Origin: Verrucomicrobiales bacterium
GTDB lineage: Bacteria; Verrucomicrobiota; Verrucomicrobiia; Verrucomicrobiales; DEV007
Assembly: GCA_003232855.1 (NCBI GenBank)
Contig: QIKC01000050.1
Coordinates: forward strand, 1-18,506
Direction: 5' to 3'
DNA: 18,506 nt
This document shows positions 922-18,506 of the stretch, in pieces; the first letter of the stretch is position 1, and the number at the start of each line of letters is the position of its first letter. Position numbers and translations under genes: made by a program. Under the pieces are notes generated by a model, which worked only from the letters and a program-made list of their open reading frames with translations, did no database searches and was not told the origin of the DNA.

Positions 922-959
922 GTTTTCAAATAGGGTAAGTTGCTGCCGACGCCAGAGTT

Positions 960-1073
960 CTAGCCTTGACGCTGTTTGTGACGCGGGTTTTTACAGATGA
1001 CACGGACGACGCCCTCGCGACGGATCACCCGGCACGATTCACATAAACGTTTAACTGACGGTCTTACTTTCAT
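960..1073 (-). CDS. rpmJ: 50S ribosomal protein L36 (bL36), zinc-ribbon type
   Basis: This 37-residue gene was read directly from the minus strand. The protein starts [20 protein letters not shown] and ends [10 protein letters not shown]. Cys11, Cys14, Cys27 and His32 are the zinc ligands of the C+ form of L36, so this is the zinc-binding version, not the zinc-free paralogue. L36 is a small globular protein on the large subunit that organises 23S rRNA helices near the GTPase-associated side. It lies directly upstream of rpsM as in most bacteria. infA, which often precedes it, is not present; instead there is a 254-base gap back to map. No Shine-Dalgarno sequence is seen (upstream agagaaatacg). 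Confidence 0.96.
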
Positions 1074-2119: not shown

Positions 2120-2167
2120 CGGATAATCGTTACGCGGCGCGGGTAGACCAGCGCAAGCCGGGGGCGG

Positions 2168-3682: not shown

Positions 3683-3734
3683 GATCTCGGCCTTAGGTGG
3701 GTATCGCCACTCAAGGTGCGGTGTGGTGTGGAAT

Positions 3735-3764
3735 GAGAGCCCCCGACCGGTGACCGGGGCTCTC
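3735..3764 (-). promoter_or_regulatory. strong hairpin between rplO and secY
   Basis: Arms GAGAGCCCC (3735-3743) and GGGGCTCTC (3756-3764) pair perfectly over nine GC-rich bases around a 12-base loop, inside the 101-base gap between the rplO stop and the secY start. In the transcribed (minus) direction it is followed by ATTCCACACC, which lacks a clear U-run, so it is not a textbook terminator. It may act as a partial terminator, an RNase-processing or 3'-end stabilising element, or a site that lowers secY expression relative to the ribosomal proteins. The function is inference. Confidence 0.6.
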
Positions 3765-3783
3765 GGTAAACAAGTGACAGTTT

Positions 3784-4389
3784 TTACTCGCTAGTCTCGC
3801 CCTCAGGGGTTTCGGCAGGCGGTGCGGCTTCTGTGGTTTCCGGGGCAGCTTTCTTCGCCGCAGGCTTTTTAGCCGCAGCTTTCTTCGCCGCAGGCTTCTT
3901 CGGCTTATCGGGTGTATCAAAACGCGGGCCGCGCTCGACTTTGGGAATGATCGATACGGCGCCCCCCGCCTTCTCGATTTTTTCCTTGGCGGAGGCGCTG
4001 ACGTTGTCGGCAGTAATCGAAAATTTCTTGCTCAAATCGCCGGTGCCGAGGATCTTCAATCCGTCATAGCGACCTTTGATTAGACGTGCCTCGCGCAGCA
4101 GCTCTTCGGTGATCTCGGTGCCCGCCTCGAAACGCTCTTCGAGCATACCGACGTTGACCACAGCGTGTACCGTTTTGAATTGGGCGTTGTTGAAGCCGCG
4201 CTTCGGCAGACGGCGGTAGAGGGGCATTTGTCCACCCTCGAAGCTGGTGCGAACACCACCCCCCGAACGAGATTTCTGCCCTTTGTGGCCGCGGCCGCAG
4301 GTCTTACCTAGGCCTGAGCTCTCGCCGCTTCCGAGACGTTTGCGGCGGTGTTTTGCCCCGGGGCGTGGTTTGATATCGTGGAGACGCAT
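3784..4389 (-). CDS. rplO: 50S ribosomal protein L15 (uL15) with Lys/Ala then acidic C-terminal tail
   Basis: L15 is a late-assembling large-subunit protein that threads a glycine-rich arm into 23S rRNA. The N-terminus (MRLHDIKPRPGAKHRRKRLG, then GLGKTCGRGHKGQKSRSGGGV and FEGGQMPLYRRLPKRGF) is a clear uL15 match. The globular part ends near residue 150 (AGGAVSIIPKVERGP). The remaining ~50 residues are extra compared with the 144-residue E. coli protein: a PAAKKAAAKK-type basic stretch (162-181) followed by an acidic Pro/Glu/Thr end (184-201). rpmD (L30), normally just upstream, is absent: only 37 bases separate rplO from rpsE. No Shine-Dalgarno sequence is seen before the ATG. Confidence 0.97.
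   Translation of the reverse strand: MRLHDIKPRPGAKHRRKRLGSGESSGLGKTCGRGHKGQKSRSGGGVRTSFEGGQMPLYRRLPKRGFNNAQFKTVHAVVNVGMLEERFEAGTEITEELLREARLIKGRYDGLKILGTGDLSKKFSITADNVSASAKEKIEKAGGAVSIIPKVERGPRFDTPDKPKKPAAKKAAAKKPAAKKAAPETTEAAPPAETPEGETSE
3845..3897 (-). repeat. two direct copies of a 23-base unit coding for the L15 Lys/Ala tail
   Basis: The plus-strand text gcagctttcttcgccgcagg followed by ctt occurs at 3845-3867 and identically at 3875-3897, a 30-base period. It codes for two rounds of a ten-residue KKPAAKKAAA-like unit in the C-terminal tail of L15. Exact identity of the two copies suggests recent duplication or slippage. Confidence 0.8.
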
Positions 4390-4426
4390 GGCTTCGAATG
4401 GCTAGGGTTTGATGGATACAGGCTTC

Positions 4427-5338
4427 TTAGAGAGCCTTCTTATCGGCGACTTTCTTGCCGCGCAGTTTGTAGATTTCTTCGCGCGAACGCAGCGAACGTA
4501 AACCGGCGAGGGTCGCTTTGACGACGTTGAAATGATTGTTAGAGCCGAGCGATTTGGTAAGAATATCGGTGATCCCGGCTGCCTCGACGACAGCGCGCAC
4601 GCTGGTGCCCGCGACAATCCCGGTTCCGGGAGACGCCGGCCGGAGCAAGACCTTGCCACCACCATACTCGCCGATGGTCTCGTGGGGAATCGTTGTGCCG
4701 CGTAAGGTGATCGGCACCAGCGAAGTCTGGGCAGTCTCGCTCGCCTTACGGATGCATTCGGCGACCTCGTTGGCTTTGCCGAAGCCGAAGCCGACTTTAC
4801 CCGCACGGTCTCCGGCGACCACTAGGGCGCTGAAGCTGAAGCGGCGTCCACCTTTGACGACTTTGGAAACGCGGTTGATCGTGACGACGCGCTCGGCGAG
4901 TTCGGGTTTCTCCGGCTCGGACGAAGCCGACCGCTCACCGCCCACGGGCGGAGTGTAGGTCGAGCTGCGGATCGTATCGCCCTCCGCATCCGGGGCGGCG
5001 CTGGCGACCGTTACCGCAACAGTGGTCGAGGGGGCGCCCTCGGCAGCCTTCTCGGGCGTCGCTTCGGCAGCCTTCTCGGGCGTCGCTTCGACAGCCTTCT
5101 CGGGTGTCGCTTCGACAGCCTTCTCAGGTGTCGCCTCGACAGCCTTCTCGGGTGTCGCTTCGGCAGCCTTCTCGGGCGTTGCTTCGGCAGCCTTCTCAGG
5201 TGTCGTTTCGGCAGCCTTCTCAGGTGTCGCTTCAACGGCAGCCGGTTCCTTGGTCTCGGCGACGGCGGGCTGTTCGGGGGTATCGGTGCCCTTGGTCTCC
5301 TCGACCTCGGGTGCGTTCGGTGTCTCTTCGCTGCTCAT
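4427..5338 (-). CDS. rpsE: 30S ribosomal protein S5 (uS5) with ~140-residue repetitive N-terminal extension
   Basis: S5 lies on the solvent side of the small subunit at the mRNA entry tunnel and affects decoding fidelity. The core begins near residue 146 and shows the S5 dsRNA-binding-like domain ([38 protein letters not shown]) and the C-terminal domain ([37 protein letters not shown]). The core length (~158) equals that of ordinary S5, but the protein is 303 residues: the first ~145 are added, made of an acidic leader, eight tandem octapeptides EATPEKA(A/V) at residues 36-99 and a Ser/Pro linker. The reading frame is continuous from the ATG through the repeats, and no Met-coded start lies near the core boundary, which supports translation of the extension; GTG or TTG starts inside it cannot be excluded. 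It begins 11 bases after rplR and has no Shine-Dalgarno sequence. Confidence 0.97.
5042..5233 (-). repeat. eight tandem 24-bp units coding for EATPEKA(A/V) in S5
   Basis: Eight head-to-tail, in-frame units of 24 bases are visible (plus-strand unit like gcagccttctcgggcgtcgc plus ttcg). They differ at only a few third positions and at one site that switches the last residue between Ala and Val. Units 4-6 carry Val while units 1-3 and 7-8 carry Ala; unit 2 begins with Glu-Thr. Each unit has two Glu and one Lys, so the tract is net acidic. A period divisible by three means copy-number slippage would keep the frame. The region is a likely spot for length variation between strains and for assembly error. 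Confidence 0.95.
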
Positions 5339-5349
5339 AGGTGATCGAT

Positions 5350-5709
5350 CTAAAATTGGAGGCCTGCCTCGCGCGCCGCATCGGCGAGCGCTTTGACTTT
5401 ATTACTATACAAGAACCCGCCACGGTCGAAGACGACGGTATCGACGCCGGCGGACTTGCCACGTTCGGCGATCATTTTCCCCACCTTGGCGGCGGTCTCG
5501 GCGTTGGCCGAACTGGCGAGCCCGCCCTTCCTGTCCTTGGTGGAGGCGGAGGCGAGCGTCTTGCCGGAATCATCGTCGATTAGCTGGGCGTAGACGTTCT
5601 TGTTAGAGAAATGGACAGCCAGCCGGGGGCGTGCAGCGGATCCTGAAACCTTCTTACGGATCCGGTTGTGTACCCGGCGGCGGTTTTTTTTGCGATTGAT
5701 ATAAGCCAT
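5350..5709 (-). CDS. rplR: 50S ribosomal protein L18 (uL18)
   Basis: L18 binds 5S rRNA together with L5 and helps fix the central protuberance to the large subunit. The 119-residue protein has the arginine-rich N-terminus ([19 protein letters not shown]), the core signature [20 protein letters not shown] and the C-terminal [20 protein letters not shown] typical of uL18. Length is normal (E. coli 117), with no added tail, unlike its downstream neighbour S5. It lies 32 bases after rplF and 11 before rpsE. No Shine-Dalgarno sequence precedes the ATG (tcacaatttcc). Confidence 0.98.
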
Positions 5710-5741
5710 GGAAATTGTGATACTGTGATGTTCAGGATTCG

Positions 5742-6278
5742 TTACTGGACGCTCTTACCAGCCTTGCGGCGCACGTGTTCATCGGCGTAACGAACTCCCT
5801 TGCCTTTATAGGGTTCGGGCGGGTAATAGGCGCGCACGTCGGAGGCGAACTGCCCGACGAGGTGTTTGTCGATGCCTTCGACGAGGATCTTTGTGTTCTC
5901 TTCGACGGTGACGGTGATGCCCTCTGGGATCGGGTGCGCGAGCGGGTGCGAGAAGCCGAGCTGTAGGTCGAGCGCCTTGCCCTGCACTTTGGCGCGGAAA
6001 CCAACACCGTGGATCTCCAACTTGCGGGAGAATCCCTTATTGACGCCCTCGACCATATTGGCGACGAGCGCGCGGGAAGTTCCATGCATGGCGCGAGTCT
6101 GACGGGAGTCATCGCGACGCTTGAGCGTCACCGTGCCGTCCTCCTGACTGAGTTCGATGCTTTCAGGCAGAGTCCAGGCGAGCTTGCCTTTCGGCCCCTC
6201 GACGGAAACGGCGCCGTCGGCGACGGCGATCGATACCTTTTCGGGGAGCGAGATAGTTTGGTTTCCGATGCGTGACAT
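5742..6278 (-). CDS. rplF: 50S ribosomal protein L6 (uL6)
   Basis: L6 lies near the sarcin-ricin loop and factor-binding site of the large subunit. The 178-residue protein has the two-domain uL6 form: [19 protein letters not shown] at the start, [13 protein letters not shown] in the first domain, and the C-terminal signature with the rRNA-binding loop ([17 protein letters not shown] followed by HVRRKAGK). Length equals that of E. coli (177). It follows rpsH by 36 bases. The start ATG is preceded by gttaatacc with no Shine-Dalgarno sequence. Confidence 0.98.
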
Positions 6279-6314
6279 GGTATTAACGATGGTTTGAAAA
6301 ATGGGACAAAAGGT

Positions 6315-6713
6315 CTACCAGACGGAGGCGAGCAGTTCGCCGCCGATGTTTTCTTTTCTGGCGCGGTGCCCGGTCATGAGCCCCTTCGAGGTGGAGACGA
6401 TGGTGATGCCGAGGCCACCGAGGACGCGGGGAATTTCCTGGGAGCCGACGTAGCGACGGCGGCCGGGTTTGCTCTCCTTTTTCAAATCGGTGAGCGCCGG
6501 GGTGCCGTCGAGGTATTTTACCTTGATCTTGATCTCGGGAAAATCACCATCGGTGACGACCTCGTAAGACCAGATGTAGCCCTCTTCTTTCAGAATGCGG
6601 GCCACCTCGGCCTTGATCTTGGAGAAGGGTGCTGTGAAATCTTCCTTGCCCGCGCGACAAGCATTCTTGAAGCGGGTGAGAAAGTCGGAGAGAGGATCGC
6701 TTAGGACGGCCAT
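6315..6713 (-). CDS. rpsH: 30S ribosomal protein S8 (uS8)
   Basis: S8 is a primary 16S rRNA binder in the central domain and, in E. coli, the translational repressor of the spc operon. The 132-residue protein begins MAVLSDPLSDFLTRFKNACR and ends with the highly conserved RNA-binding block STSKGLMTGHRARKENIGGE. It follows rplE after only 43 bases; the rpsN (S14) gene that sits here in most bacteria is absent. Whether an S8-binding repressor site exists on this transcript cannot be told by eye; I saw no obvious helix-21 mimic in the short rplE-rpsH gap. Upstream bases are AT-rich (aatttattactacg), without a Shine-Dalgarno sequence. Confidence 0.98.
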   Translation of the reverse strand: MAVLSDPLSDFLTRFKNACRAGKEDFTAPFSKIKAEVARILKEEGYIWSYEVVTDGDFPEIKIKVKYLDGTPALTDLKKESKPGRRRYVGSQEIPRVLGGLGITIVSTSKGLMTGHRARKENIGGELLASVW

Positions 6714-6756
6714 CGTAGTAATAAATTGGTTGGCTTAGAAATTGGGGTTGGGCTGA

Positions 6757-7323
6757 CTATGCAGCGGCATTTTTCTCACGCCCTCGGAAGGGCATGCCGA
6801 GAAGGTGGAGCAGTTCGAGCGCCTCCTCGTCAGATTTGGCGGAAGTGACGACACAGATGTCGAAACCGAGCGCGCGTTTGACCTTATCGAGTTCGATTTC
6901 GGGGAAGATGGTGTGGTCGTTGACCCCGAGGGTGTAGTTGCCCCGACCGTCGAAGGCCTTGGCCGAAACGCCGCGGAAGTCACGGATGCGCGGGATGGCG
7001 GTGCCGATCAGGCGCAGCAGGAAGTCATACATTTGATCTCCGCGCAAGGTCACCTTAGCGCCGACCTGTTCGCCGGCGCGCAGCTTGAAGTTCGAGATGC
7101 TGTTCTTGGCGATGGTAGCGACACCGCGCTGGCCGGTGATCAGACCGATCTCGTCGAGCGCGTCCTGAACCGCCTGCTTGCGCTCGGCCTCGGCTTTGCC
7201 GACGCCGCAGTTGACGACGACCTTTTCGATCTTCGGCACCTGGTGGACGTTCGTATAGCCGAACTTTTCCCTGAGTGCAGGGACGGCTTTCTCTTGATAA
7301 GTGGTGAGCAGCGTTGGTGTCAT
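6757..7323 (-). CDS. rplE: 50S ribosomal protein L5 (uL5)
   Basis: L5 binds 5S rRNA and contacts the P-site tRNA elbow and S13 across the subunit interface. The 188-residue protein carries the family N-terminus (LLTTYQEKAVPALREKFGYT, then QVPKIEKVVVNCGVG), the AKNSISNFKLRAGEQVGAKV region with VTLRGDQMYDFL, and the RDFRGVSAKAFDGRGNYTLG signature. It ends in a short Ala-rich tail (REKNAAA), slightly longer than E. coli (179). It starts six bases after the rplX stop, so translational coupling is probable. Confidence 0.98.
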   Translation of the reverse strand: MTPTLLTTYQEKAVPALREKFGYTNVHQVPKIEKVVVNCGVGKAEAERKQAVQDALDEIGLITGQRGVATIAKNSISNFKLRAGEQVGAKVTLRGDQMYDFLLRLIGTAIPRIRDFRGVSAKAFDGRGNYTLGVNDHTIFPEIELDKVKRALGFDICVVTSAKSDEEALELLHLLGMPFRGREKNAAA

Positions 7324-7329
7324 GATGAG

Positions 7330-7575
7330 TTACTTCGCCGCTTTGGAGACGAGTTTGACGTTGGAAATATGGATTGGGCCCTCGCGTTCGATGATGCCGC
7401 CATCGGGCATCTCCTGAGTCGCCTTGGCGTGTTTTTTAATCATGCGCACGCCTTCGACGAGCACTTGATCCTTCTCGGGGAAGACCTGGAGGATCGCTCC
7501 AGAGGAACCCTTATGGTTGCCGGAGATCACCTCGACGGTGTCGCCCTTTCTTACATGTGTTTTAGCGTTGCTCAT
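7330..7575 (-). CDS. rplX: 50S ribosomal protein L24 (uL24)
   Basis: L24 is an early assembly initiator for the large subunit and lies by the peptide exit tunnel. The 81-residue product has the N-terminal KOW motif ([20 protein letters not shown]) followed by [20 protein letters not shown] and the C-terminal [10 protein letters not shown]. It is shorter than the E. coli protein (104) but in the range of compact uL24 forms. Its ATG overlaps the rplN stop in an ATGA junction, the only such overlap between recognised genes in this window, which strongly suggests coupled translation. Confidence 0.97.
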
Positions 7576-7937
7576 AGCACCTCGGGGGCGAGGGAGACGA
7601 TTTTCATGAAATTCTTTTCGCGAAGTTCGCGGGCGACCGGTCCGAAGATGCGGGTGCCGCGCGGGTTTTTGTCTTTATCGATAATTACGATCGCGTTTTT
7701 GTCGAAGCGCAGGGTCGATCCGTCCGTGCGGCGGATCGGGGCGGCGGTGCGGACTACAACAGCCTGCACCACGGCGCCTTTTTTGATACTGGCGGTGGGC
7801 GTGGCCTCGCGAACGTGCGCGGTGATCACGTCCCCCACCCCGGCGCTCCTAGAGCGTTTCCCGAGCACGCCAATCATCTTGGCGACGCGGGCACCGGTGT
7901 TGTCGGCGATCTGGACTTTGGACTCCATTTGAATCAT
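7572..7937 (-). CDS. rplN: 50S ribosomal protein L14 (uL14)
   Basis: L14 forms intersubunit bridges and is the docking point for the silencing factor RsfS on the large subunit. The 121-residue protein has the family N-terminus [20 protein letters not shown], the central [20 protein letters not shown] and the [20 protein letters not shown] block with [10 protein letters not shown]. The first ATG is chosen because uL14 proteins begin MIQ; a second ATG three codons on is less likely. It is the first gene of the spc-type group, 48 bases after rpsQ, with no visible new promoter in that gap. Its stop overlaps the rplX start by four bases. Confidence 0.98.
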
Positions 7938-7985
7938 AGCAAGAAGAGAGTTATCGGGTGAAAAATAAGGTTGGTGGAATGGTTT

Positions 7986-8258
7986 CTAGTGGGCGAGAAC
8001 CTCGACGAGGCGCCAGCATTTGCTCTTGCTCATCGGTTTGGTCTCGATGATGCGGACTTTGTCTCCGGTCTTCGCTTCGCCCTTTTCATCGTGCGCGTAG
8101 AGCTTCGTCGTCAGCTTGATGATTTTGCGGAATTTCGGGTGCGGGACACGGCGGACGACGACGACGACGATGGTTTTATCCATCTTGTCGGAAGTCACGA
8201 CGCCGACCCGCTCTTTGCGCAGGCCGCGTTTGGTTTCGTTGGCTAGTTCTTCGCTCAT
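7986..8258 (-). CDS. rpsQ: 30S ribosomal protein S17 (uS17)
   Basis: S17 is an early-binding OB-fold protein of the small-subunit body. The 90-residue product shows the typical core RKERVGVVTSDKMDKTIVVV followed by PHPKFRKIIKLTTKLYAHDE and TGDKVRIIETKPMSKSKCWR. The N-terminus has a short hydrophilic addition (MSEELANETK). It is the last gene of the S10-type group, 41 bases after rpmC. Sequence before the ATG (tagaaaagcacca) has no clear Shine-Dalgarno match. Confidence 0.98.
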   Translation of the reverse strand: MSEELANETKRGLRKERVGVVTSDKMDKTIVVVVVRRVPHPKFRKIIKLTTKLYAHDEKGEAKTGDKVRIIETKPMSKSKCWRLVEVLAH

Positions 8259-8299
8259 TGGTGCTTTTCTAAAAATTTACTGTCGTCTGTGGCCGGGCT

Positions 8300-8527
8300 C
8301 TAGCTGGCAGTCGCAGCGGTTTCTGTCGCCACGGCCTCGCTCCCACTACGGGCGGAGAGTATCGTTTCGATACGGGCGATGGTGCGCCGCACGGCTTTGA
8401 TCCGGGCGGGATTTTCGAGTTGGCCACTCTGCTGCTGGACGCGCAGATTGATCGTTTCGTGTTTGAGATCGCGTCGCAGGGTAGCGAGCTCCTCGTTGGT
8501 CATTTCTTTGAGTTCCTTGATTTTCAT
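8300..8527 (-). CDS. rpmC: 50S ribosomal protein L29 (uL29) with short Ala/Thr tail
   Basis: L29 lies at the polypeptide exit site and helps form the docking platform for trigger factor and SRP. The two-helix uL29 form is clear: MKIKELKEMTNEELATLRRD, then ETINLRVQQQSGQLENPARI and KAVRRTIARIETIL. E. coli L29 has 63 residues; this one has 75, the extra being an Ala/Thr/Ser/Glu tail (GSEAVATETAATAS), in keeping with added low-complexity ends on several other ribosomal proteins here. It follows rplP by 41 bases. Confidence 0.97.
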   Translation of the reverse strand: MKIKELKEMTNEELATLRRDLKHETINLRVQQQSGQLENPARIKAVRRTIARIETILSARSGSEAVATETAATAS

Positions 8528-8568
8528 CGCGGTCGTTTAATTACAGTTTGGGTCGGTGTCGTTCCTGA

Positions 8569-8985
8569 CTAAAGGACGCCGCGTTTTACGAAGCGGGTGC
8601 GGATACCGAGCTTGTTGGCAGCGCGGCGGAAAGCTTCACGGGCGAGTGTCTCTGACACACCGCCCACTTCGAAGAGCATCAGGCCGGGGCGCACCACTGC
8701 GACCCAGTGGGCCGGGGCGCCTTTACCTTTACCCATCCGGGTTTCCGGCGGGCGGGAGGTGGTCGGCTTGTGCGGGAAAATGCGGATCCAAACCTTGCCC
8801 TTACGCTTGAGGTAACGGTTGATCGTGACCCTGCAGGCCTCGATCTGGTTGTTTTTGATCCAGTCGCGTTCGAGCGCCTGCAACCCGTAGTCGCCAAAAT
8901 TCAGGCGTGTTCCACGCTGCGCGTTGCCACCACGATTGCCTCGCTGGCTTTTGCGGTACTTAACCTTTCTCGGCATCAAGGGCAT
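8569..8985 (-). CDS. rplP: 50S ribosomal protein L16 (uL16)
   Basis: L16 binds late in large-subunit assembly and positions the A-site tRNA near the peptidyl transferase centre. The 138-residue product has [14 protein letters not shown] at the N-terminus, the [20 protein letters not shown] loop (the arginine that is hydroxylated in E. coli L16 is present) and [14 protein letters not shown] near the end. Two ATGs lie in frame: the first gives MPLMPRK, the second, nine bases on at 8976, gives MPRK. The family usually begins ML(Q/M)PKR, so either start is possible; the upstream one is kept. It follows rpsC by 60 bases. Confidence 0.97.
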
Positions 8986-9045
8986 GATTCAGATCCTTTC
9001 TCGGTCGTTGGGTAAAATGAGTGAATGGGTATATCCGTCTGTGCG

Positions 9046-9747
9046 CTAGCTGCGCGGCGCGGGGCGTTTGCTCTGAGGGCGTCGGCGCGGACCGCCACCG
9101 GTCTCGCGTTTCGGCTTCTCGGAATCTTCTTTCTTATTGATCCAGCATTTGACGCCGATGATCCCATATCCGGTGCGCGCCTCGGCGAAACCGTAGTCGA
9201 TGGGAACGCGCAGGGTCTGCAACGGCACTTTGCCTTTGCGATACCACTCGGCGCGGGCGATGTCGGCGCCGCCGAGACGGCCGCCGCAACGGATACGAAC
9301 GCCCTCGGCGCCGAAGTCCATAGTCGTCTGGATGGCGCGCTTCATCGCACGGCGGAAGGCGATTCTGCGTTCGAGCTGCACCGCGACGTTCTCCGCGACA
9401 AGTTGCGCATCCAGTTCCGGCTGCTTGATCTCGTAGATGTCGAGCTTCACATCGCGCCCTGAGCACATTTTCGAAATCTCGCTGTTCATGCGTTCGATCT
9501 CCGATCCCTTACGACCGATAACCAGACCGGGGCGGGCGGTGAACAGGGTGACGCGGACGCTGTTCCAAGCGCGCTCGATAACGATCTTGGAGACCGCGGC
9601 GCTCATCAGCTTTTTCTTGAGGTGAGTGCGCACCCTGATGTCCTCATGGAGGAAATGGGTGAACTCTTGTTTGTTAGCGTACCACTTCGAACGCCAGTCC
9701 TTCTGGACGGCGAGGCGGAAGCTGATCGGGTTTACTTTACGTCCCAT
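9046..9747 (-). CDS. rpsC: 30S ribosomal protein S3 (uS3)
   Basis: S3 forms part of the mRNA entry pore and, with S4 and S5, has mRNA helicase activity. The 233-residue protein starts MGRKVNPISFRLAVQKDWRS, has a type II KH domain with the GXXG loop at residues 78-81 (VIGRKGSEI), and the C-terminal S3 domain with IRCGGRLGGADIARAEWYR and LQTLRVPIDYGFAEA. It ends in a basic Arg/Pro tail (GGGPRRRPQSKRPAPRS). Length equals E. coli S3 (233). It lies 48 bases after rplV. The start is preceded by gaatatatacc, without Shine-Dalgarno match. Confidence 0.98.
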   Translation of the reverse strand: MGRKVNPISFRLAVQKDWRSKWYANKQEFTHFLHEDIRVRTHLKKKLMSAAVSKIVIERAWNSVRVTLFTARPGLVIGRKGSEIERMNSEISKMCSGRDVKLDIYEIKQPELDAQLVAENVAVQLERRIAFRRAMKRAIQTTMDFGAEGVRIRCGGRLGGADIARAEWYRKGKVPLQTLRVPIDYGFAEARTGYGIIGVKCWINKKEDSEKPKRETGGGPRRRPQSKRPAPRS

Positions 9748-9795
9748 GGTATATATTCAGTAGTGATGAGTGGTTGGAGAGCGGTGCGCTGTTGG

Positions 9796-10194
9796 CTATG
9801 CCTGCTCTGAGGTCTCTGCGCCGGCGGCCGGCTTTTCATTTTTCTTTGCCTTGGGGGCAATCGCCTCGTCGGTGAGGACGATGGTGATATGACTAGTGCG
9901 TTTGCGAATCGGGCCGGCGGAGCCGCGTGCGCGGGGCTTGAAGCGCTTGAAGGTCGGGCCGGAATTTACCACTGCCTCTTTCACCACGAGGGTGTCGACG
10001 GCGAGATCGTGATTGTTTTCGGCGTTTGCCAAAGCGGATTTCAAGGTCTTGCCGATCAGGAACGCCGCCTTACGGGGCGTGAAGGTTAGCACGTCGAGCG
10101 CGGTGGAAACAGGGAGACCCTGGATCTCACGGGCGACGTCGCGAGCCTTGAGTGGCGAGATTCTTGCGTAGCGGTATAGGGAGCGGACTTCCAT
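9796..10194 (-). CDS. rplV: 50S ribosomal protein L22 (uL22) with Lys/Ala/Glu tail
   Basis: L22 lines the peptide exit tunnel through a long beta-hairpin and is a site of macrolide-resistance changes. The 132-residue protein has the family features RYARISPLKARDVAREIQGL, SALANAENNHDL and the hairpin region GPTFKRFKPRARGSAGPIRK ending with RTSHITIVLTDE near residue 110. The last ~22 residues (PKAKKNEKPAAGAETSEQA) are additional to the 110-residue E. coli form and similar in composition to the tails on L15 and S11. rpsS is normally the direct neighbour, but here a gene for an exported protein separates them, 26 bases upstream. Confidence 0.98.
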   Translation of the reverse strand: MEVRSLYRYARISPLKARDVAREIQGLPVSTALDVLTFTPRKAAFLIGKTLKSALANAENNHDLAVDTLVVKEAVVNSGPTFKRFKPRARGSAGPIRKRTSHITIVLTDEAIAPKAKKNEKPAAGAETSEQA

Positions 10195-10220
10195 CGGTTG
10201 TTCTATGGCTAAAGGGTTCC

Positions 10221-11003
10221 TCAGTTGGTAAAAGCGACGGAAGCGAGATCACCGGGTTTCGGTGCGTCGTCTTCCGATATCAAATTTTTCAAGAGCGCTG
10301 CGGCGATATTCTCACGCACATCGACGACGACGGCGCTGCCGACCGGGCGGTCTTTGCGGCGCAAGTCGAAAGGCATTCCGATGCGCACACCGCTGTTGCG
10401 ACCGACGTTGAGCACGATCACTCCGTAATCTTTTTTGACGCTGACGACACGGCTATCATGCAGGGTGCCGACAGCGGATGTTCCGCTCGCTCTGGCGGCG
10501 GTGAGCCCCAGGGCGTGATCGGCGTCGGCGACCGCTTTCTCGATCGCTACGACCGCCTGTGGATTGTCGCTCACGGAGGTTTCGACCAGTCGCAATGACG
10601 CGTCAGAGAGGGTGATGAGTGCTTCCGAAATTTTCAGCTTTTCCTCTTCTAAGAGGCGCAAGTCGCTGACGGCTTTCACTAGCCTGTTTTCGATGCCGTC
10701 TTCGCCACCGACCACGGCTTCGATGCCGAGCGCTTCCATCTGCTTGCGCATTTGGGAGTAGGAGCGGCGGAACTCTTCGGACTCGACATTGGCGGCCATC
10801 AGGCTGCCGGCCAAGTTCTTGTTCACCTGCGTCAAGCGCTCTACCTCGCCCTGTGCCTGACGGCTCAGCGCGACGGCGGCGGAGAGGGCGGCGCGTGCCT
10901 CGACCAGTTCGATGTCCCTCTGAGCATAGGCCACAGGAGCGCCGAACCCGGTCGCGAGGACGAGGGTAAAGCAGCCTTTGGCTATGGTGTTGAGGAATGA
11001 CAT
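10221..11003 (-). CDS. predicted exported coiled-coil protein of unknown function, inserted between rpsS and rplV
   Basis: I do not recognise this 260-residue protein as a named family. Residues 1-27 look like a Sec signal peptide: a short basic start, a hydrophobic core (CFTLVLATGFGAPVA) and an AYA|Q cleavage site. Residues ~32-94 and ~105-145 are Glu/Leu/Ala/Arg-rich with heptad character, suggesting coiled coils. Residues 185-258 form a small beta-rich domain with VVSVKKDYGVIVLNVGRNSG, then VRIGMPFDL, then VGSAVVVDVRENIAAALL; the pattern of a central glycine pair followed by G-M-P-F resembles the SH3-like C-terminal domains seen in FlgT- and MreC-type periplasmic proteins, though this is only a pattern resemblance. 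It is in line with the operon (22-base gap from rpsS, 26 to rplV) and on the same strand, so it should be co-transcribed with ribosomal genes. No Shine-Dalgarno sequence. A role at the cell envelope is inferred from the signal peptide only. Confidence 0.88.
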   Translation of the reverse strand: MSFLNTIAKGCFTLVLATGFGAPVAYAQRDIELVEARAALSAAVALSRQAQGEVERLTQVNKNLAGSLMAANVESEEFRRSYSQMRKQMEALGIEAVVGGEDGIENRLVKAVSDLRLLEEEKLKISEALITLSDASLRLVETSVSDNPQAVVAIEKAVADADHALGLTAARASGTSAVGTLHDSRVVSVKKDYGVIVLNVGRNSGVRIGMPFDLRRKDRPVGSAVVVDVRENIAAALLKNLISEDDAPKPGDLASVAFTN

Positions 11004-11025
11004 CGTTCGTTAATGGATGCGTTGA

Positions 11026-11295
11026 CTACTTCTTACCGACGCCGCCGTGGGCGACGAATTTCCGGGTCGGTGAGAACTCGCCGAGTTTGTGCCCGACCAT
11101 GTTCTCCGAGACGTAAACGCTGAGGAAGTCCTTGCCGTTGTGGACGAGGAAAGTATGGCCGACGAAATCGGGGCTGATCATCGAGCGGCGCGACCAGGTT
11201 TTGATCGGCAGTTTTTTGCCAGAATCGTTCATCTTGTCGATCTTAATGAGCAACTTCTGATCGATAAAAGGTCCTTTTTTTAGGGAGCGTCCCAT
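11026..11295 (-). CDS. rpsS: 30S ribosomal protein S19 (uS19)
   Basis: S19 forms a complex with S13 in the small-subunit head and contacts the A-site tRNA region. The 89-residue product is typical from end to end: [40 protein letters not shown] and [20 protein letters not shown], closing with [14 protein letters not shown]. Length is standard (E. coli 92). It follows rplB by 34 bases. The next gene is not rplV but the exported-protein gene. The start is preceded by AT-rich sequence (cgtattatacacc) with no Shine-Dalgarno match. Confidence 0.98.
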
Positions 11296-11329
11296 GGTGT
11301 ATAATACGTTTTAAGATTGGGTTAGTTAC

Positions 11330-12184
11330 TTATCCGCGGCGGCTACTATTCTTAGTCTTGCGCCGTTGGATGATAAATTTGTCGCTGGCCTTGTGCTTCT
11401 TGCGGGTCTTCTGACCTTTGACGTGCCCCCAAGGGCTCTTCAGGTGCTGGCGTCCGCCGCCGGATTTCGATTTGCCCTCACCACCACCGTTCGGGTGATC
11501 GACAGGGTTCATGCACATGCCGCGCACGGTCGGGCGAATCCCTAACCAGCGAGTGCGGCCGGCCTTGCCCGACACGACATCGCCGTGCTGGATATTGCCG
11601 ACGCGACCGATAGTGCAATAGCACGCGGCGTTGATCTTGCGGATCTCACCAGAAGGCAACTTCACGAGGGCGTATTTGCCCTCGCGGTTCGAAAGGGTCG
11701 CTTGGCCACCGGCGCTGCGGGCGATGCAGCCGCCCTTGTTGGGGACGAGTTCGATGTTGTGAATCTCCGAGCCGAGAGGCACGCTGCTGAGCGGCATGGC
11801 GTTGCCGACGGTCGGCGGCACGGCATCTCCGGCCTGCACTTTGGTTCCGACCTCGAGCCCGAGGGGGGCGATGATGTAGGCTTTCACCCCGTCTTCGTAT
11901 TTGATCAATGCGATGTTCGCAGAGCGATTCGGATCGTACTCTACCGACTCCACGTTGGCGACGACATCGCGCTTGCTACGCTTGAAGTCCACGAGCCGGT
12001 AACGGCGTTTGTGGCCACCGCCGCGGTGGCGACAGGTGATGCGTCCTTGGTTATTGCGACCACCGCTCTTCTTGAGCGGGCGGCACAACGATTTCTCCGG
12101 AGTCGACTTGGTCAGCTCCTCGAAACCGGGCAGCTGCTTGTAACGGCTGGACGGTGTGTATGGTTTGAATTTTTTAAGAGCCAT
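11330..12184 (-). CDS. rplB: 50S ribosomal protein L2 (uL2)
   Basis: L2 is needed for subunit association and for the peptidyl transferase centre. The 284-residue protein shows the OB-fold and SH3-like domains in order ([60 protein letters not shown]) and the C-terminal loop [20 protein letters not shown]. His230, equivalent to E. coli His229, is retained, whereas the second His of the usual HPHGGGEG has become Asn232. The [16 protein letters not shown] segment is slightly longer than in E. coli (273 residues in all). The ATG follows rplW by 24 bases; aagg lies only three bases before the ATG, too close for a good Shine-Dalgarno site. Confidence 0.98.
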
Positions 12185-12208
12185 GGCCTTGTAAGGTCAA
12201 ATGGGGAT

Positions 12209-12493
12209 TTATACTAGGTCGATCGAGTCGCCCTCTTTGAGTCTGACGAAAGCTTTCTTCCAGTGGGCGGTGCGACCGAAATCGGAACGGCGTTCGCGCT
12301 TTTTCTTGCCCTTGTAGTTACAGGTGCGGACATCGACGACCTTCTTGCCGAAGATCTTCTCGATGGCCTCTTTGATCTCGAGCTTGTTGGCGCCGCGGTC
12401 GACCTTGAAGACGTACTCGTTGTTGAGTTCGCCAAGAAGGGTCGCCTTCTCGCTGAGCTGGATCGTTTTAATGACTTGGAAAATGTCTTTCAT
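12209..12493 (-). CDS. rplW: 50S ribosomal protein L23 (uL23)
   Basis: L23 sits at the exit of the peptide tunnel and is the main docking site for trigger factor and SRP. The 94-residue product has the uL23 pattern: VIKTIQLSEKATLLGELNNE, YVFKVDRGANKLEIKEAIEK, IFGKKVVDVRTCNYKGKKKR and a final KKAFVRLKEGDSIDL. Length is as usual (E. coli 100). It is 18 bases after rplD. The bases before its ATG (cgcacgcccgca) contain no Shine-Dalgarno sequence. Confidence 0.97.
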   Translation of the reverse strand: MKDIFQVIKTIQLSEKATLLGELNNEYVFKVDRGANKLEIKEAIEKIFGKKVVDVRTCNYKGKKKRERRSDFGRTAHWKKAFVRLKEGDSIDLV

Positions 12494-12511
12494 TGCGGGC
12501 GTGCGATTGCG

Positions 12512-13120
12512 TTAGACGGTGGTTCGCTTAGCGAGAATGGCCATGGCGCCGGAGGTAATGATGATCTTGTCGTGGAACAGAATCTGTTCGGCTGTCACAT
12601 CGGAGGCGGTCAGGCGGGCGGAAGTGGAGATGTTGCGCCCGGCGAGATGGGTCTCGTCGGTGAACTTGTCGGAGATGATCAGCGCATTCTCGGTGCCGGC
12701 GGCGGCGACGAGTTGGGTGAGGAAGCTCTTGGTCTTGTGGTCGGGAACCTCGAAGGAATCGACGGTGACCACGTCGCCAGACTCGATGCGCGAGCCCAGG
12801 GCGGTGCCCAGTGCCAGACGCTTGGTCTTGCGGTTGACGCTTTTCGAGTAGTCGCGCGGACGCGGCCCGAAGACGATACCGCCTCCACGGTGGATTGGCG
12901 AGGCATTGCCGCCCTGGCGGGCGTTGCCGGTGCCTTTCTGCCGGAAGGGTTTCTTGCCGGTGGCGGCGACCTCTCCGCGCGTCTTTGTGTTGGCCGTGCC
13001 GGAGCGACGGTTGGCACGCAGTGCGGTGATAGTGTCGTGCAGAGCCTGCTGTGCAGGAACATCGGGAATGCCGATGTTGGCCTGCTTAGCAGCGTCGATT
13101 GTGAGAACGTTAGCGGACAT
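12512..13120 (-). CDS. rplD: 50S ribosomal protein L4 (uL4)
   Basis: L4 lines the peptide tunnel through an extended loop and in E. coli also represses the S10 operon. The 202-residue protein has the tunnel loop region (TRGEVAATGKKPFRQKGTGN, then ARQGGNASPIHRGGGIVFGP and RPRDYSKSVNRKTKRLALG) and a C-terminal globular part ending AILAKRTTV. Length equals that of E. coli (201). Whether it autoregulates here is unknown: there is no separate S10 leader, because rpsJ follows fusA after only 13 bases. It lies 27 bases after rplC. Confidence 0.98.
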   Translation of the reverse strand: MSANVLTIDAAKQANIGIPDVPAQQALHDTITALRANRRSGTANTKTRGEVAATGKKPFRQKGTGNARQGGNASPIHRGGGIVFGPRPRDYSKSVNRKTKRLALGTALGSRIESGDVVTVDSFEVPDHKTKSFLTQLVAAAGTENALIISDKFTDETHLAGRNISTSARLTASDVTAEQILFHDKIIITSGAMAILAKRTTV

Positions 13121-13147
13121 CGCTTGAATAAGTTCGTGGGTTAAGTC

Positions 13148-13795
13148 TTACTTTCCCGGAGCTGCTTTCTTCAGCGCGGGACGAATGATAACATAGCCGC
13201 CCTTGGCACCGGGGACGGCGCCGCTGATCAGCAACACGTTGTCTTCCGGGCGGGATTTGACGACTTTAAGATTCTGAACGGTGACGCGCTTGCCGCCCAT
13301 GCGACCGGGCATCTTGGTGTTTTTCCAAACACGTCCCGGGGTCGAGCCGGCACCGATGGCGCCAGTTCGGCGGTGCATCATGGAGCCGTGCGACTGCGGT
13401 AGTCCACCGAAGTTGTAGCGACGGTAGACGCCCTGGAAACCTTTGCCTTTCGTAGTGCCGATGATGTCGACGAACTGGCCGTCCTGGAACATATCGACGC
13501 TGGGCTTGTCCCCCTCTTTGGGAAGGTCGGCATCGCTGTCGAAGCGAAATTCGCGAACGAAGCGCTTGGGCTCCGAACCAGCCTTTTTAAACTGGCCGTT
13601 GCGGGGCTTGTTCATGCGAGATTCCCTCTGCCCATCGAAGCCGACCTGCACCGCGGAATATCCGTCGGTGTCTTGGGTCTTCGATTGGAGAAGCGTGTTG
13701 TCGCTGACGTCGATAACCGTGACGGGGATCATTGATCCATCTTCGTCGTAGATTCGGGTCATTCCGATCTTTTTTCCTAAAAGTCCTATGCTCAT
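13148..13795 (-). CDS. rplC: 50S ribosomal protein L3 (uL3)
   Basis: L3 is an early assembly protein whose loop reaches towards the peptidyl transferase centre. The 215-residue protein shows MSIGLLGKKIGMTRIYDEDG, VTVIDVSDNTLLQSKTQDTD, the FQGVYRRYNFGGLPQSHGSM segment and GRVWKNTKMPGRMGGKRVTV. At the position of E. coli Gln150, which PrmB methylates, this protein has Ser (GAIGAGSTPG), so that modification is not expected; this Gln is not universal among bacteria. It follows rpsJ by 79 bases, the largest gap within the fused str-S10 part, where I saw no convincing promoter. Confidence 0.98.
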   Translation of the reverse strand: MSIGLLGKKIGMTRIYDEDGSMIPVTVIDVSDNTLLQSKTQDTDGYSAVQVGFDGQRESRMNKPRNGQFKKAGSEPKRFVREFRFDSDADLPKEGDKPSVDMFQDGQFVDIIGTTKGKGFQGVYRRYNFGGLPQSHGSMMHRRTGAIGAGSTPGRVWKNTKMPGRMGGKRVTVQNLKVVKSRPEDNVLLISGAVPGAKGGYVIIRPALKKAAPGK

Positions 13796-13874
13796 AGCGC
13801 GTGCGGTTTTCTGCGGGGGCGCGGTTAAAATTACTTAGTTGGCGAAACGGGGTTCTGTGCGGTAACCGGTGGGG

Positions 13875-14183
13875 TCAGATCTTAATCGTGATATCGACAC
13901 CGGCCGGGAGATTGAGTTTTTTGAGTTCGTCCACCGTGCGGGAGGTGGGATCGACGATGTCGAGCAGGCGCTTGTGCGTGCGGATCTCGAACTGCTCAGC
14001 GGCTTTTTTGTTCACGTGTGGCGAACGGTTGACGCTGAATTTTTCGATGCGTGTCGGCAGCGGGATCGGGCCGACCACTTTGGCGCCGGTACGTTTGGCC
14101 GTCTCGACGATTTCTTCGACCGAGCGGTCGAGCGCACGGTGATCGTAAGCCCGGAGGCGGATTCGGATACTTTGGCTTTCCAT
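13875..14183 (-). CDS. rpsJ: 30S ribosomal protein S10 (uS10)
   Basis: S10 belongs to the small-subunit head and in E. coli doubles as NusE in transcription antitermination. The 102-residue product is typical: [40 protein letters not shown] and [20 protein letters not shown]. It begins only 13 bases after the fusA stop; tuf, which sits at this place in many bacteria, is missing, so str and S10 genes are fused. The sequence before the ATG (gccttttagat) has no Shine-Dalgarno site. Confidence 0.98.
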
Positions 14184-14196
14184 ATCTAAAAGGCGT

Positions 14197-16389
14197 CTAT
14201 ACGGGTTCTAAGTCTCTGATGGTTGACGGGTTCGGCACGTAACTGCCACCGCGTTGTTCGACCAGTTCGGCGACGATCTTGGCCGGCACGGTCTCGAAAT
14301 GGGATGGTTCCATGGAATAGCTAGCGCGCCCCGAAGAGAGGGTGCGGATGTCGGTCGAGTATCCGAACATCGCGGCCAGCGGCACTTCGGCCTTGATGAT
14401 ATTGGCGTTGTTCCGGGTACCGATCTGACCGATGCGCCCGCGGCGGCGACTGAGGTCTCCCATGATGTCGCCTTGGAACTCCTCGGGCGTGGTACACTCG
14501 ACGGACATCACCGGTTCGAGCAGCTCGCAACCGGCGGTGTTAAAGGCGTCCTTCATGGCGAAGATCGCCGCCATCTTGAATGACTGCTCGTTGGAATCGA
14601 CGTCGTGTGAGGAACCGTCGAGCAGATCGACGTGAACATCGACGACTTGGTAGCCGGCGATGATGCCGCTGATCATCGACTCTTTGATACCTGACAGGCA
14701 GGCGTTGATAAATTCTTTGGGGATGGTGCCACCGACCACTTTGTTGTCGATGCTGTGTCCGCTGCCACGCTTGTTGGGGCTAACTCTGAGGATCACGTGA
14801 CCGTATTGCCCTTTGCCGCCAGTCTGCTTCTTGAGCGTGCCCTCGCCATCGGCGGCGGTGGTGATGGTTTCGCGGTAGGCGATTTGCGGCTTGCCGGCGT
14901 TGGTATCGACACCGGCTTCGACGCGCATGCGGCTCTGAATGATTTCCAAGTGCAGCTCGCCCATGCCCGAAATGATGGTTTGGCCGGTCTCCTCGTCGGT
15001 CTTAACGACGAAGGTGGGATCTTCTTCCCCGAGGCGTTGCAGGGCGATCGCCATTTTGTCCTGATCGAGCGTCGTGCGCGGCTCGACCGACATGGAGATA
15101 ACCGGCTCCGGGAACGATGGCGGCTCTAACAACACGTTGATATCCGGGCTGCACAGGGTGTCGCCAGTGGTGACGTTTTTGATCCCGACGATGGCGGCGA
15201 TATCACCGGCAAAGCAGGTCTCGATATCCTTATGCACGTCGGCCTGAATCTGAATCAGTCGACCGATGCGCTCCTTGCGGCGGGTGCGCGGATTGAACAC
15301 TTGGTCGCCTTTGGAGACGGTGCCCGCGTAAACGCGGAAGAAGACCAGCTTGCCGCGGCCTTTCTCGCTCCAAAGCTTGAAGGCCAAGGCGCAGAATTTT
15401 TCGCTGTCGTCGGTGATGATTTTGATCTTTTCGTCATCATCGCCAGCGACCTGCGCCTCTGCGGCAGCGATGTCCAACGGGCTGGGCAGGTAGTCGATCA
15501 CGGTGTCGAGCACTGCCTGCACGCCTTTGTTTTTGAAAGCGGAGCCACCGACGACGGGGACGATTTTGTTGGCGGTCGTGGCGCGGCGCAATGCCGCTTT
15601 GACGGTGGGAATCGAAATTTCCTTCTCTTCGATGAATAGCGTGCCGATTTCTTCATCGACATCGGCGAGCCGTTCGAGCAACTGCGCGTAGGCGGCGTCG
15701 GCGATTTCGAGTTCGGCGGTGGTGAGCTCGCGCAGCGCGTAGGTCGAGCCGAGTTTGTCGTCGTCGGCGTAAACGATCGCTTTCTTGTTGATGATGTCGA
15801 TCTGGCCGGAGAGGTCGTCTTCGGCACCGATCGGAATCAGCACCGGAGCGGCGTTGGCGCCGAGCGTCTCGCGAACGTCGTCCACGACCTTGTCGAAGTC
15901 AGCTCCGACGCGATCCATTTTGTTGACGAAGACAATGCGCGGCACCTCGTATTTGTCGGCTTGCCGCCACACGGTCTCGGACTGCGGTTGCACTCCGGCG
16001 ACGCCGCAAAAGACGACGATGGCGCCGTCGAGCACGCGCAATGAGCGCTCCACCTCAGCGGTGAAATCGACGTGTCCGGGAGTATCGATGATATTGATGC
16101 GGTGGTCGCTGCCCTCGAATAGCTTGTAGACGCCCTCGGATTGGGTCTGTTCCCAAGAACAGGTCACGGCGGCAGCGGTGATGGTGATGCCGCGGTCGCG
16201 TTCCTGCTCCATCCAATCGGTGGTCGCCTGGCCGTCGTGAACCTCGCCGATGCGGTGGATGCTTCCCGTATAGAAGAGCACCCGCTCGGTGAGCGTCGTC
16301 TTCCCGGCGTCGATGTGCGCACAGATCCCGATATTGCGCGTGCGCTGCAACGGGAACTCGCGCTTCGGCGAACTGGGATTAGATGACAC
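14197..16389 (-). CDS. fusA: translation elongation factor G
   Basis: EF-G is the cytoplasmic GTPase that drives translocation and, with RRF, ribosome recycling. All G motifs are visible in the 730-residue protein: G1 AHIDAGKT (24-31), G2 RGITI (66-70), G3 DTPGHVDF (102-109, with the catalytic His106), G4 NKMD (156-159) and G5 SAF (283-285). Later domains follow in order: domain II around [20 protein letters not shown], domain III with GMGELHLEI, domain IV with the [20 protein letters not shown] region, and domain V ending [20 protein letters not shown]. It is a full-length, single-copy-type EF-G with a slightly extended N-terminus. The start codon is GTG, which places the short Ser/Pro-rich leader before [12 protein letters not shown] as in the family. 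It follows rpsG by 42 bases and precedes rpsJ by 13. Confidence 0.99.
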
Positions 16390-16431
16390 GGTAGATAAAA
16401 TGAGGTGAGTTGTTCGGCGGAGCGTAAGGAC

Positions 16432-16905
16432 TTACCAGCGGAAGTGGGCGAAGGCGCGGTTGGCCTGCGCCATCTTGTGCATTTCGTCGCGGCGGCGCAC
16501 GGCGCTGCCACTGTTGGATGCGGCGTCACGAATCTCGTTGGAGAGGGCGACGTGCATCGGGGTGCCGCGGCGGGCGCGGGCGAAATTGACCAACCAACGG
16601 ATCGCCAGAGACTCCTGACGCCCAGTGGCTACCTCCAGCGGCACCTGATAGGTGGCGCCACCGACTCGGCGGGATTTGACTTCGACACGCGGCTTGGAAT
16701 TTTCCACTGCGCGGGTGAGGATCTCTAGCGGATCGACGTTGTCGCTGCCATCGTTGGCGCGCTCGACGGCGGCGTAAACGATGCGCTCGGCGAGCGATTT
16801 TTTACCGGCGCCCATGACGGTGTTGACGAATTTGGCAACCAAGACGCTATCGTAATGCGCGTCCTTGGGCTCGGCTTTATGGCGGACTCTTCTGCGGCGT
16901 GACAT
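16432..16905 (-). CDS. rpsG: 30S ribosomal protein S7 (uS7)
   Basis: S7 starts assembly of the small-subunit head and in E. coli represses the str operon by binding the rpsL-rpsG gap. The 157-residue protein is typical: MSRRRRVRHKAEPKDAHYDS, VAKFVNTVMGAGKKSLAERI, PRVEVKSRRVGGATYQVPLE and the closing KMAQANRAFAHFRW. The gap upstream is 70 bases, shorter than in E. coli; I could not identify an S7-binding fold in it by eye. The ATG follows cattcctactctccc, in which no Shine-Dalgarno sequence is seen. Confidence 0.98.
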   Translation of the reverse strand: MSRRRRVRHKAEPKDAHYDSVLVAKFVNTVMGAGKKSLAERIVYAAVERANDGSDNVDPLEILTRAVENSKPRVEVKSRRVGGATYQVPLEVATGRQESLAIRWLVNFARARRGTPMHVALSNEIRDAASNSGSAVRRRDEMHKMAQANRAFAHFRW

Positions 16906-16975
16906 GGGAGAGTAGGAATGAGGTGGGTGGTAAAAACGGGTTGGCTAAGTGCGGGGCAAAGTATCAGCGACTGTC

Positions 16976-17350
16976 CTAACCTTTGGGACGCTTGGTGCCG
17001 TATTTCGAGCGGCTCTGGCGGCGCTTATCGACACCGAGGGTATCGAGCGCGCCACGAACGACGTGGTAACGCACACCCGGAAGGTCTTTCACCCTACCGC
17101 CGCGAACGAGGACGATGGAGTGCTCCTGGAGGTTGTGCCCCTCACCGCCGATGTAGGCAATAATCTCGTGGCCGTTGGTCAGGCGCACCTTTGCCACCTT
17201 GCGCAATGCGGAGTTCGGCTTCTTCGGCGTGCGCGTATAAACCTGCAGGCAGACACCGCGACGCTGCGGACAATTCACCAGCGCGGGTGACTTGGATTTC
17301 TCGACGGGCTTCTTACGACCGTAGCGAACGAGTTGATTGATGGTTGGCAT
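16976..17350 (-). CDS. rpsL: 30S ribosomal protein S12 (uS12)
   Basis: S12 lies at the decoding centre and sets translational accuracy; it is the classic streptomycin-resistance locus. A longer open frame extends upstream, but the family N-terminus [14 protein letters not shown] fixes the start at 17350 and gives 124 residues, the same as E. coli. The two loops altered in resistant strains are wild-type here ([13 protein letters not shown] and [13 protein letters not shown]), so a streptomycin-sensitive S12 is predicted. The Asp that RimO methylthiolates in E. coli is present in KDLPG. This is the first gene of the ribosomal series, after a non-coding leader with promoter candidates. No Shine-Dalgarno sequence lies before its ATG (acctcgcacgaaatt). 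Confidence 0.98.
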
Positions 17351-17364
17351 AATTTCGTGCGAGG

Positions 17365-17391
17365 TGTCCCGGGAAGCGAAAGAGCGGGACA
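17365..17391 (-). promoter_or_regulatory. hairpin in the rpsL leader
   Basis: TGTCCCG (17365-17371) and CGGGACA (17385-17391) are perfect inverted copies around a 13-base loop, ending 14 bases before the rpsL ATG. In the leader RNA this stem would sit where the ribosome must land. It has no U-tract, so it is not a terminator. It may affect rpsL initiation or bind a ribosomal protein; this is inference. Confidence 0.45.
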
Positions 17392-17501
17392 ACAGCTCAA
17401 CACGCAGCGCCAATCGCCAGTGCAGAAAGTCGACCCGTCGGCTACACAAGGGAAGAAATCTCCCCCCACGCAGAGCGCAGTCACCCCCGAAAGGGAGCGC
17501 G

Positions 17502-17529
17502 AATATATCGAGGTTCCCTACCGTGGCAA
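17502..17529 (-). promoter_or_regulatory. sigma-70-type promoter candidate for the rpsL series
   Basis: On the minus strand TTGCCA (17529-17524, five of six consensus bases) is followed after 16 bases by TATATT (17507-17502, five of six). Upstream are A-rich runs (aaaaccgaaaatatcaaaat) resembling an UP element, with the small palindrome CCGATTTATCGG at 17531-17542 next to the -35 box. The bases after the -10 box (cgcgctccc) are GC-rich, the kind of discriminator found in growth-rate and ppGpp-controlled promoters. Transcription would start near 17494, giving a leader of about 145 bases. It is the best promoter candidate in the window. Confidence 0.6.
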
Positions 17530-17572
17530 GCCGATTTATCGGGATATTTTGATATTTTCGGTTTTCTTGCGT

Positions 17573-17602
17573 ATTCTCCGCAACACGCCGAAACGCGGTC
17601 AA
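17573..17602 (-). promoter_or_regulatory. second, weaker promoter candidate upstream of rpsL
   Basis: TTGACC (17602-17597) followed after 18 bases by GAGAAT (17578-17573) lies just after the stop of the upstream gene. The -35 box is good (five of six), the -10 box fair (four of six). Tandem promoters are common before ribosomal operons, but this one could be chance. Confidence 0.35.
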
Positions 17603-17612
17603 AACAAGGCCG

Positions 17613-18500: not shown

Positions 18501-18506
18501 ACCAGA

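Follow-up and report, generated by a model that had tools for sequence, protein, structure and literature searches.

Envelope genes kept among ribosomal protein genes have a precedent in secY, which is universal, of known function and part of the spc operon, and exported proteins of the SecM type are coded immediately upstream of the gene that they regulate. Among envelope proteins themselves, a membrane-linked coiled coil is combined with a barrel in periplasmic adaptors of the AcrA/HlyD/MacA type, MreC has two barrels, and FlgT of the Vibrio flagellar motor ring has a six-stranded barrel as its C-terminal domain (PF16538; PDB 3w1e, 8z5n). Here we describe a gene, referred to as X, that resembles each of these in part and lies inside the S10 operon of a Verrucomicrobiales bacterium (assembly GCA_003232855.1, contig QIKC01000050.1, positions 1 to 18,506; this whole stretch of 18,506 nucleotides is called the window).

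Gene X is real, widespread and undescribed in the literature searched; searches on the S10 operon, Planctomycetes–Verrucomicrobia–Chlamydiae (PVC) signatures, FlgT and Amuc locus tags turned up no description of it among the papers that they listed. Its constant partner is rplV, not the rpsS–rplV pair. Few bacterial gene clusters have been studied as much, or are as constant, as the S10 operon, and X is an overlooked part of it whose location will be very surprising to a specialist. Unlike secY, which lies in the 3′ part of the window, X was found here in one lineage.

The position of gene X and its partner rplV

Gene X opens with ATG and has zero internal stops, as judged from the open-frame list and the translation. 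The first-pass annotation had placed a 260-residue frame 22 and 26 bases from rpsS and rplV on the same strand, and the frame is indeed intact there:

10221..11003, minus strand: gene X, a putatively exported coiled-coil/barrel protein of 260 amino acids (span includes the stop codon)
11026..11295, minus strand: rpsS (S19), upstream neighbour of X, named from its translation
11004..11025, minus strand: gap between rpsS and X, 22 nt
9796..10194, minus strand: rplV (uL22), downstream neighbour and constant partner of X, named from its translation
10195..10220, minus strand: gap between X and rplV, 26 nt

Far from being unique to this genome with a broken frame in its relatives, a possibility that the annotation had raised, X is a fixture of the order. 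All 57 searched genomes, including the window's own, match X at E ≤ 0.001, and X lies directly upstream of rplV in all 56 that have rplV (own included); the 57th (G012; L and G numbers are our handles for loci and genomes) is an assembly without rplV in which the X match is weak (8.8 × 10−4). Position was read from 30 loci and from G047, G049, G052 and G055, and from the coordinates of X and rplV for 22 of the 23 remaining genomes; two of the 30 loci (L020 and L021) begin at a contig edge before X and show the rplV side alone. The ratio of nonsynonymous to synonymous divergence (dN/dS) of X is 0.06–0.28 in 14 of 15 close pairs, with dS saturated in the remaining pair. Because these values are far below 1, X is under purifying selection. 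Distances between X proteins track those of rplB, rpsS, rplV and rpsC (ρ = 0.52, 0.59, 0.39 and 0.52; permutation maxima 0.127–0.185; 49 of 53 loci, with four left out for a missing or too short gene), consistent with joint inheritance of X and the operon. Mean identity is 0.338 for X compared with 0.575–0.761 for the four ribosomal proteins.

Across the class, 145 of 188 genomes match a 25-row X profile at E ≤ 0.001, a count that includes paralogues and barrel-only matches. Another 23 best-match loci (L038–L060), which were chosen via X similarity and are therefore biased towards X, all have X between rpsS and rplV. We also surveyed the slot in 58 class genomes, 55 with a weak or no match and three with a strong one (G143, G149 and G206), and found rpsS in 55 and rplV in 55. 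Of the 19 slots whose full content was read, 14 contain a short form of X (108–137 amino acids as called) and L119 contains a divergent long form; L120, L122, L123 and L124 are empty.

A sample free of X-similarity bias was obtained by baiting a one-genome-per-species collection with an rplV alignment and keeping the best 80 of at least 583 relatives, those most like the query rplV; it holds neither Planctomycetota nor Chlamydiota. Within these best 80 of at least 583, an X-like gene stands before rplV in 30 of 39 loci of Verrucomicrobiota, Lentisphaerota or Kiritimatiellae type (titled Verrucomicrobia or Verrucomicrobiales, Akkermansia, Prosthecobacter, Roseibacillus, Chthoniobacterales, Opitutales, Lentisphaerae or Lentisphaeria, Victivallales, Kiritimatiellae, PVC group and similar) and in 0 of 41 loci from other phyla, including Firmicutes, Actinobacteria, Proteobacteria and Acetothermia, where rpsS lies −1 to 115 nt before rplV. 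The E values of the X-like genes run from 8.7 × 10−81 to 2 × 10−6 for 29 of the 30 and reach 0.0027 for the other (L230). A contig edge truncates L209. L211 (from G240) and L219 (from G341) overlap with our other samples; L219 is a bin whose title names no phylum, and it was placed with the Verrucomicrobiota type because G341 belongs to the phylum of the window's own genome. Three profiles run against stop-to-stop frames of at least 60 amino acids found no X at E 0.1 in 58 X-less loci, comprising the 41 from other phyla, the nine X-less ones among the 39, and L120, L122, L123, L124, L187, L194, L197 and L198.

Outside the class, many genomes have an S10 operon that is broken after rpsS (L147, L151, L155, L156, L158–L162 and others), and X goes with rplV. 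In a phylum-wide search of 194 genomes for X, 83 were without a match, and slots of the 83 were checked for members of the class set. We picked 32 out-of-class genomes for a weak X match, a choice biased towards X. Of their 30 rpsS loci, 21 have no rplV downstream, although two of these end with the contig within 340 nt, so that a split is not proven; the other nine keep rplV nearby, with X between in two (L169 and L174) and no X in seven. When rplV itself was searched, an X-like gene was found immediately before it in 17 of the 21 rpsS-split genomes (two of them not proven split), or 19 of 23 when two genomes not covered by rpsS loci are added; L187, L194, L197 and L198 have none. Altogether X precedes rplV in 21 of the 32 picked genomes, as it does in all 17 out-of-class loci fetched for stronger X matches, two of which come from the 32. 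The single contig of G331, which we take to be Lentisphaerota bacterium ZTH, places rpsS near 1.62 Mb and, near 2.53 Mb, a trpB-like gene followed by X, rplV and rpsC on to rplO, with X overlapping rplV by 10 nt. None of the five split loci that were read contains rpsS. In L281 and L285 the nearest large frame upstream runs in the same direction as X; in L282, L283 and L284 it is apparently divergent. The distance from X to rplV ranges from overlap to more than 100 nt. Because X stays with rplV where the operon is split, its partner is rplV rather than the rpsS–rplV pair. Tabulating rpsS–X–rplV across Verrucomicrobiota had been suggested at first pass; the slot does recur widely, while the pair as the constant unit gives way to rplV alone.

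Predicted fold and relation to known envelope proteins

The translation and the AlphaFold model of the window protein (mean predicted local distance difference test score, pLDDT, 81.4) divide it into four parts:

10923..11003, minus strand: predicted signal peptide, residues 1–27, with AYA before Q28 in the translation
10728..10922, minus strand: first long helix/coiled coil, residues 28–92 (AlphaFold helix 25–92; block pLDDT 83–96 over residues 31–90)
10485..10706, minus strand: second helical part, residues 100–173 (AlphaFold helices 100–142, 148–164 and 167–173)
10224..10478, minus strand: predicted C-terminal six-stranded barrel, residues 176–260 (AlphaFold strands between 184 and 256; FlgT C-terminal/F1-ATPase N-terminal fold)

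This agrees with the two coil stretches and small beta-rich C-terminal domain that had been read from the translation, as does the N-terminus with the signal peptide: by eye, a basic residue is followed by a hydrophobic core and then AYA before Q28. Signal peptides were judged from hydrophobicity and by eye alone, and the cleavage site is a prediction. Three X alignments show an N-terminal hydrophobic segment in 25 of 25, 38 of 41 and 15 of 16 of their members. Structure comparison matched AlphaFold models of X from two distant branches, in both cases, to the FlgT C-terminal/F1-ATPase barrel fold; the structure listings (VIA), made for whole models, were filled by barrel matches, and coiled-coil matches to unrelated PDB coils were not used as evidence. 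Barrel residues G201, G205, G209, R230 and G251 are conserved among 41 diverse members. Comparison of the Lentisphaerota-type (A6, 16 rows) with the Verrucomicrobiales-type profile (A3, 77 rows) gives a probability of 96.6 and E = 5.5 × 10−10 over 159 columns, which include part of the helical region. We define the X family here by position, N-terminal signal and barrel; its members in the S10 operon lie directly upstream of rplV and have a predicted N-terminal export or anchor signal and a predicted C-terminal barrel.

In the coil of X of L169 (721–1464, minus strand), a stretch of about 55 residues is, by eye, closely duplicated. Paralogues with the coil–barrel plan occur elsewhere in the genomes, the window's own included, with two in tandem in four of six loci inspected (L140, L141, L142 and L143). 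The tandem paralogues of L142 are directly preceded by a pnp-like frame.

The window protein has no family match in Pfam (E ≤ 1) or NCBIfam. For the FlgT domain, PF16538, three of 41 X relatives match weakly at E ≤ 0.1 (best 0.01). The likeness of X to FlgT lies in its modelled six-stranded barrel fold; the coiled coil of X stands where FlgT has its other domains. X also differs from FlgT in being coded in a ribosomal operon, with ribosomal, translation and secretion genes as its neighbours in the window. Adaptors share the membrane-linked coiled coil and barrel; the Pfam search, which covered their families, gave X no match at E ≤ 1, and no transporter genes lie beside X. According to PMC4446572, the adaptor barrel has the same topology as the FlgT C domain.

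The first-pass annotation had compared the C-terminus with both FlgT and MreC. The FlgT half of this holds at the level of the barrel fold; the likeness to MreC (PF04085) is architectural, comprising an N-terminal hydrophobic segment, a coiled coil and a barrel, with no family match and with one barrel in X instead of two. An X profile matches MreC 9dvb at E = 1.1 × 10−4, the best stretch being anchor and coil, and Foldseek aligns X with the MreC-type structure 6zm0 over 58 columns (28% identity, E = 0.016). MreC is present elsewhere in 161 of 188 class genomes, X-less ones included, and is absent from 19 listed genomes of genus g19, presumably Akkermansia, all 19 of which have X; seven further MreC-less class genomes are not listed, and the window's own assembly, which is 62% complete, shows no MreC. 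X is therefore independent of MreC: the family search and the pattern of presence and absence, in which the two do not co-vary, rule out X as MreC. A weak barrel match links the X profile to TsaP (E = 0.02), with no stretch passing alone.

Proposed growth coupling and rival explanations

Expression of X had been predicted to follow ribosome synthesis. This fits the minus strand around X, on which neither a promoter-like nor a terminator-like site was detected between 9000 and 13000, and X is probably co-transcribed with rplV in this organism. Published RNA sequencing (RNA-seq) of Akkermansia points the same way at the level of the cluster: the ribosomal cluster is reported to be up-regulated together, and the tag range takes in X by gene count. 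X is present in the cultivable Akkermansia muciniphila, which we take G149 to be; read by eye, the order there is rplN, rpsQ, rpmC, rplP, rpsC, rplV, X, rpsS, rplB, rplW, rplD, rplC and rpsJ, followed by fusA, rpsG, rpsL, two genes, an NtrB-type kinase and a Fis-type regulator. Because a published table (PMC5945754) gives this kinase and regulator the tags Amuc_0311 and Amuc_0312, X counts as Amuc_0299; the classing of Amuc_0296–0297, 0301 and 0304 as ribosomal in PMC13335675 agrees with this count. No paper came up when the literature was searched for Amuc_0299 and Amuc_0300. At the A. muciniphila locus (L144, 4708–14192) the ribosomal cluster ends at rplN, and rplX to secY are not adjacent there.

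We give about an even chance to the reading that X is a growth-coupled envelope scaffold. X would be an envelope protein of ancient origin in the Verrucomicrobiota/Lentisphaerota lineage, inherited vertically and exported or held by its N-terminal anchor, that assembles through its coiled coil and docks by its FlgT-C-type barrel on another envelope component. Translated from the rplV–rpsC–rplP message, it would be made in amounts that scale with ribosome production and hence with growth rate, which could give the tie of envelope growth or export capacity to growth rate envisaged at first pass. That X stays with rplV in broken operons argues mildly for such coupling. Of this account, the gene, its conservation, its place before rplV, its modelled architecture and its independence from MreC are established here, whereas export, oligomerization, docking, co-transcription in this organism and selection for growth coupling are inferred. 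X offers a concrete way to test how cells match envelope growth to ribosome synthesis.

Several observations weigh against a growth-coupled scaffold. X is dispensable: nine of the 39 loci in the rplV-baited sample lack it (L210, L218, L220, L221, L224, L225, L226, L252 and L272), as do 11 of the 32 picked out-of-class genomes. Among the other 36 class genomes of the slot survey, three are without both rpsS and rplV in the search, and 32 of the 33 further ones have 26–132 nt between the rpsS and rplV matches, too short for X. In G080 (L071), a 0.9-Mb genome, the gap is 313 nt without an X-like frame, and both 0.9-Mb genomes have a slot without X; in L120 (G109) a gap of X-like size (552 nt) has no recognizable X frame and is possibly a decayed copy. 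The operon works without X, as these losses show, and their number argues mildly against coupling. In several families the coil is lost and a signal peptide and barrel of 108–137 amino acids remain, so the coil is not essential. The barrel fold also occurs in cytoplasmic ATPases and is alone uninformative on function. The operon location may persist through inertia without dosage selection.

Inertia is the main rival. An envelope gene may have entered the ancestral S10 operon and stayed as breakage is costly, its product being of slight value and its dosage tie functionless. The fast divergence of X relative to the ribosomal proteins, its repeated loss and the similar coil–barrel paralogues elsewhere in the genomes all favour such a history, which we consider possible but on the doubtful side, given that X is kept directly before rplV in 17 of 21 broken operons (two not proven split) and that all 14 short forms read stay in the slot. 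As a regulatory leader, X would sense secretion capacity through its own translation or export and thereby set how the rplV half-operon is translated, in the style of SecM before secA but with a stable exported product. This would suit the place of X immediately before rplV in the X-bearing loci read, the 10-nt overlap in G331 and the position ahead of rplV in split operons. Divergence at fourfold sites is also lower over the final 20 codons of X than in mid-gene (37/140 versus 561/1,396, P = 1.4 × 10−3; pairs not independent), but so it is at the end of rplB (22/101 versus 691/1,696), although not at the ends of rpsS, rplV and rpsC, and in the first 20 codons it is low in all five genes. X further differs from SecM-type leaders in keeping what is modelled as a folded, conserved C-terminal domain, and the last 14 residues of 41 members, compared by eye, share no motif. 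An arrest peptide was rejected on this absence and on the unspecific 3′-end constraint; with X–rplV distances that vary and rplV kept in X-less lineages, a leader role appears improbable.

We hold it equally unlikely that X belongs to a known machine, whether it replaces MreC in the elongasome or forms a ring, as FlgT and TsaP do, in flagella or type IV pili. The coil and barrel plan, the 9dvb profile match, the weak TsaP match and the FlgT barrel fold speak for such a role; the single barrel of X, the missing MreC family match and the distribution of MreC given above speak against it. That X is not a gene, or is an artefact of assembly, would accord with the lack of a curated family match for the window protein, but dozens of genomes conserve the frame, whose dN/dS lies far below 1; a spurious frame is thereby ruled out, and we give the idea practically no credence. 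The boldest reading makes X an exported sensor-scaffold, translated just ahead of uL22 from one shared mRNA, that serves as a dedicated link between ribosome production and the cell envelope: how far X is exported or assembled would in turn regulate the making of ribosomal proteins, and ribosome output would be capped by the capacity of the envelope. This strikes us as a long shot.

Other features of the window

The genes of the window were named by reading their translations. On the minus strand the order is rpsL, rpsG, fusA, rpsJ, rplC, rplD, rplW, rplB, rpsS, X, rplV, rpsC and rplP, and then rpmC, rpsQ, rplN, rplX, rplE, rpsH, rplF, rplR, rpsE, rplO, secY, map and rpsM. A scan of the window for known RNA elements in Rfam brought zero families to the gathering score. 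Upstream of rpsL, a 295-residue frame (17613–18500, minus strand) has a transmembrane-like segment and nothing above the cut-off in Pfam or NCBIfam. There is no room for rpsN between rplE and rpsH (6714–6756) or for rpmD between rpsE and rplO (4390–4426). The C-terminal tail of rplO (3784–4389, minus strand) is rich in Ala and Lys and includes a short tandem repeat at 3848–3902, and rpsE (4427–5338, minus strand) codes for an S5 of 303 amino acids in whose long N-terminal extension a 24-nt unit is repeated about eight times (TPEKA.EA-type; repeat at 5040–5233).
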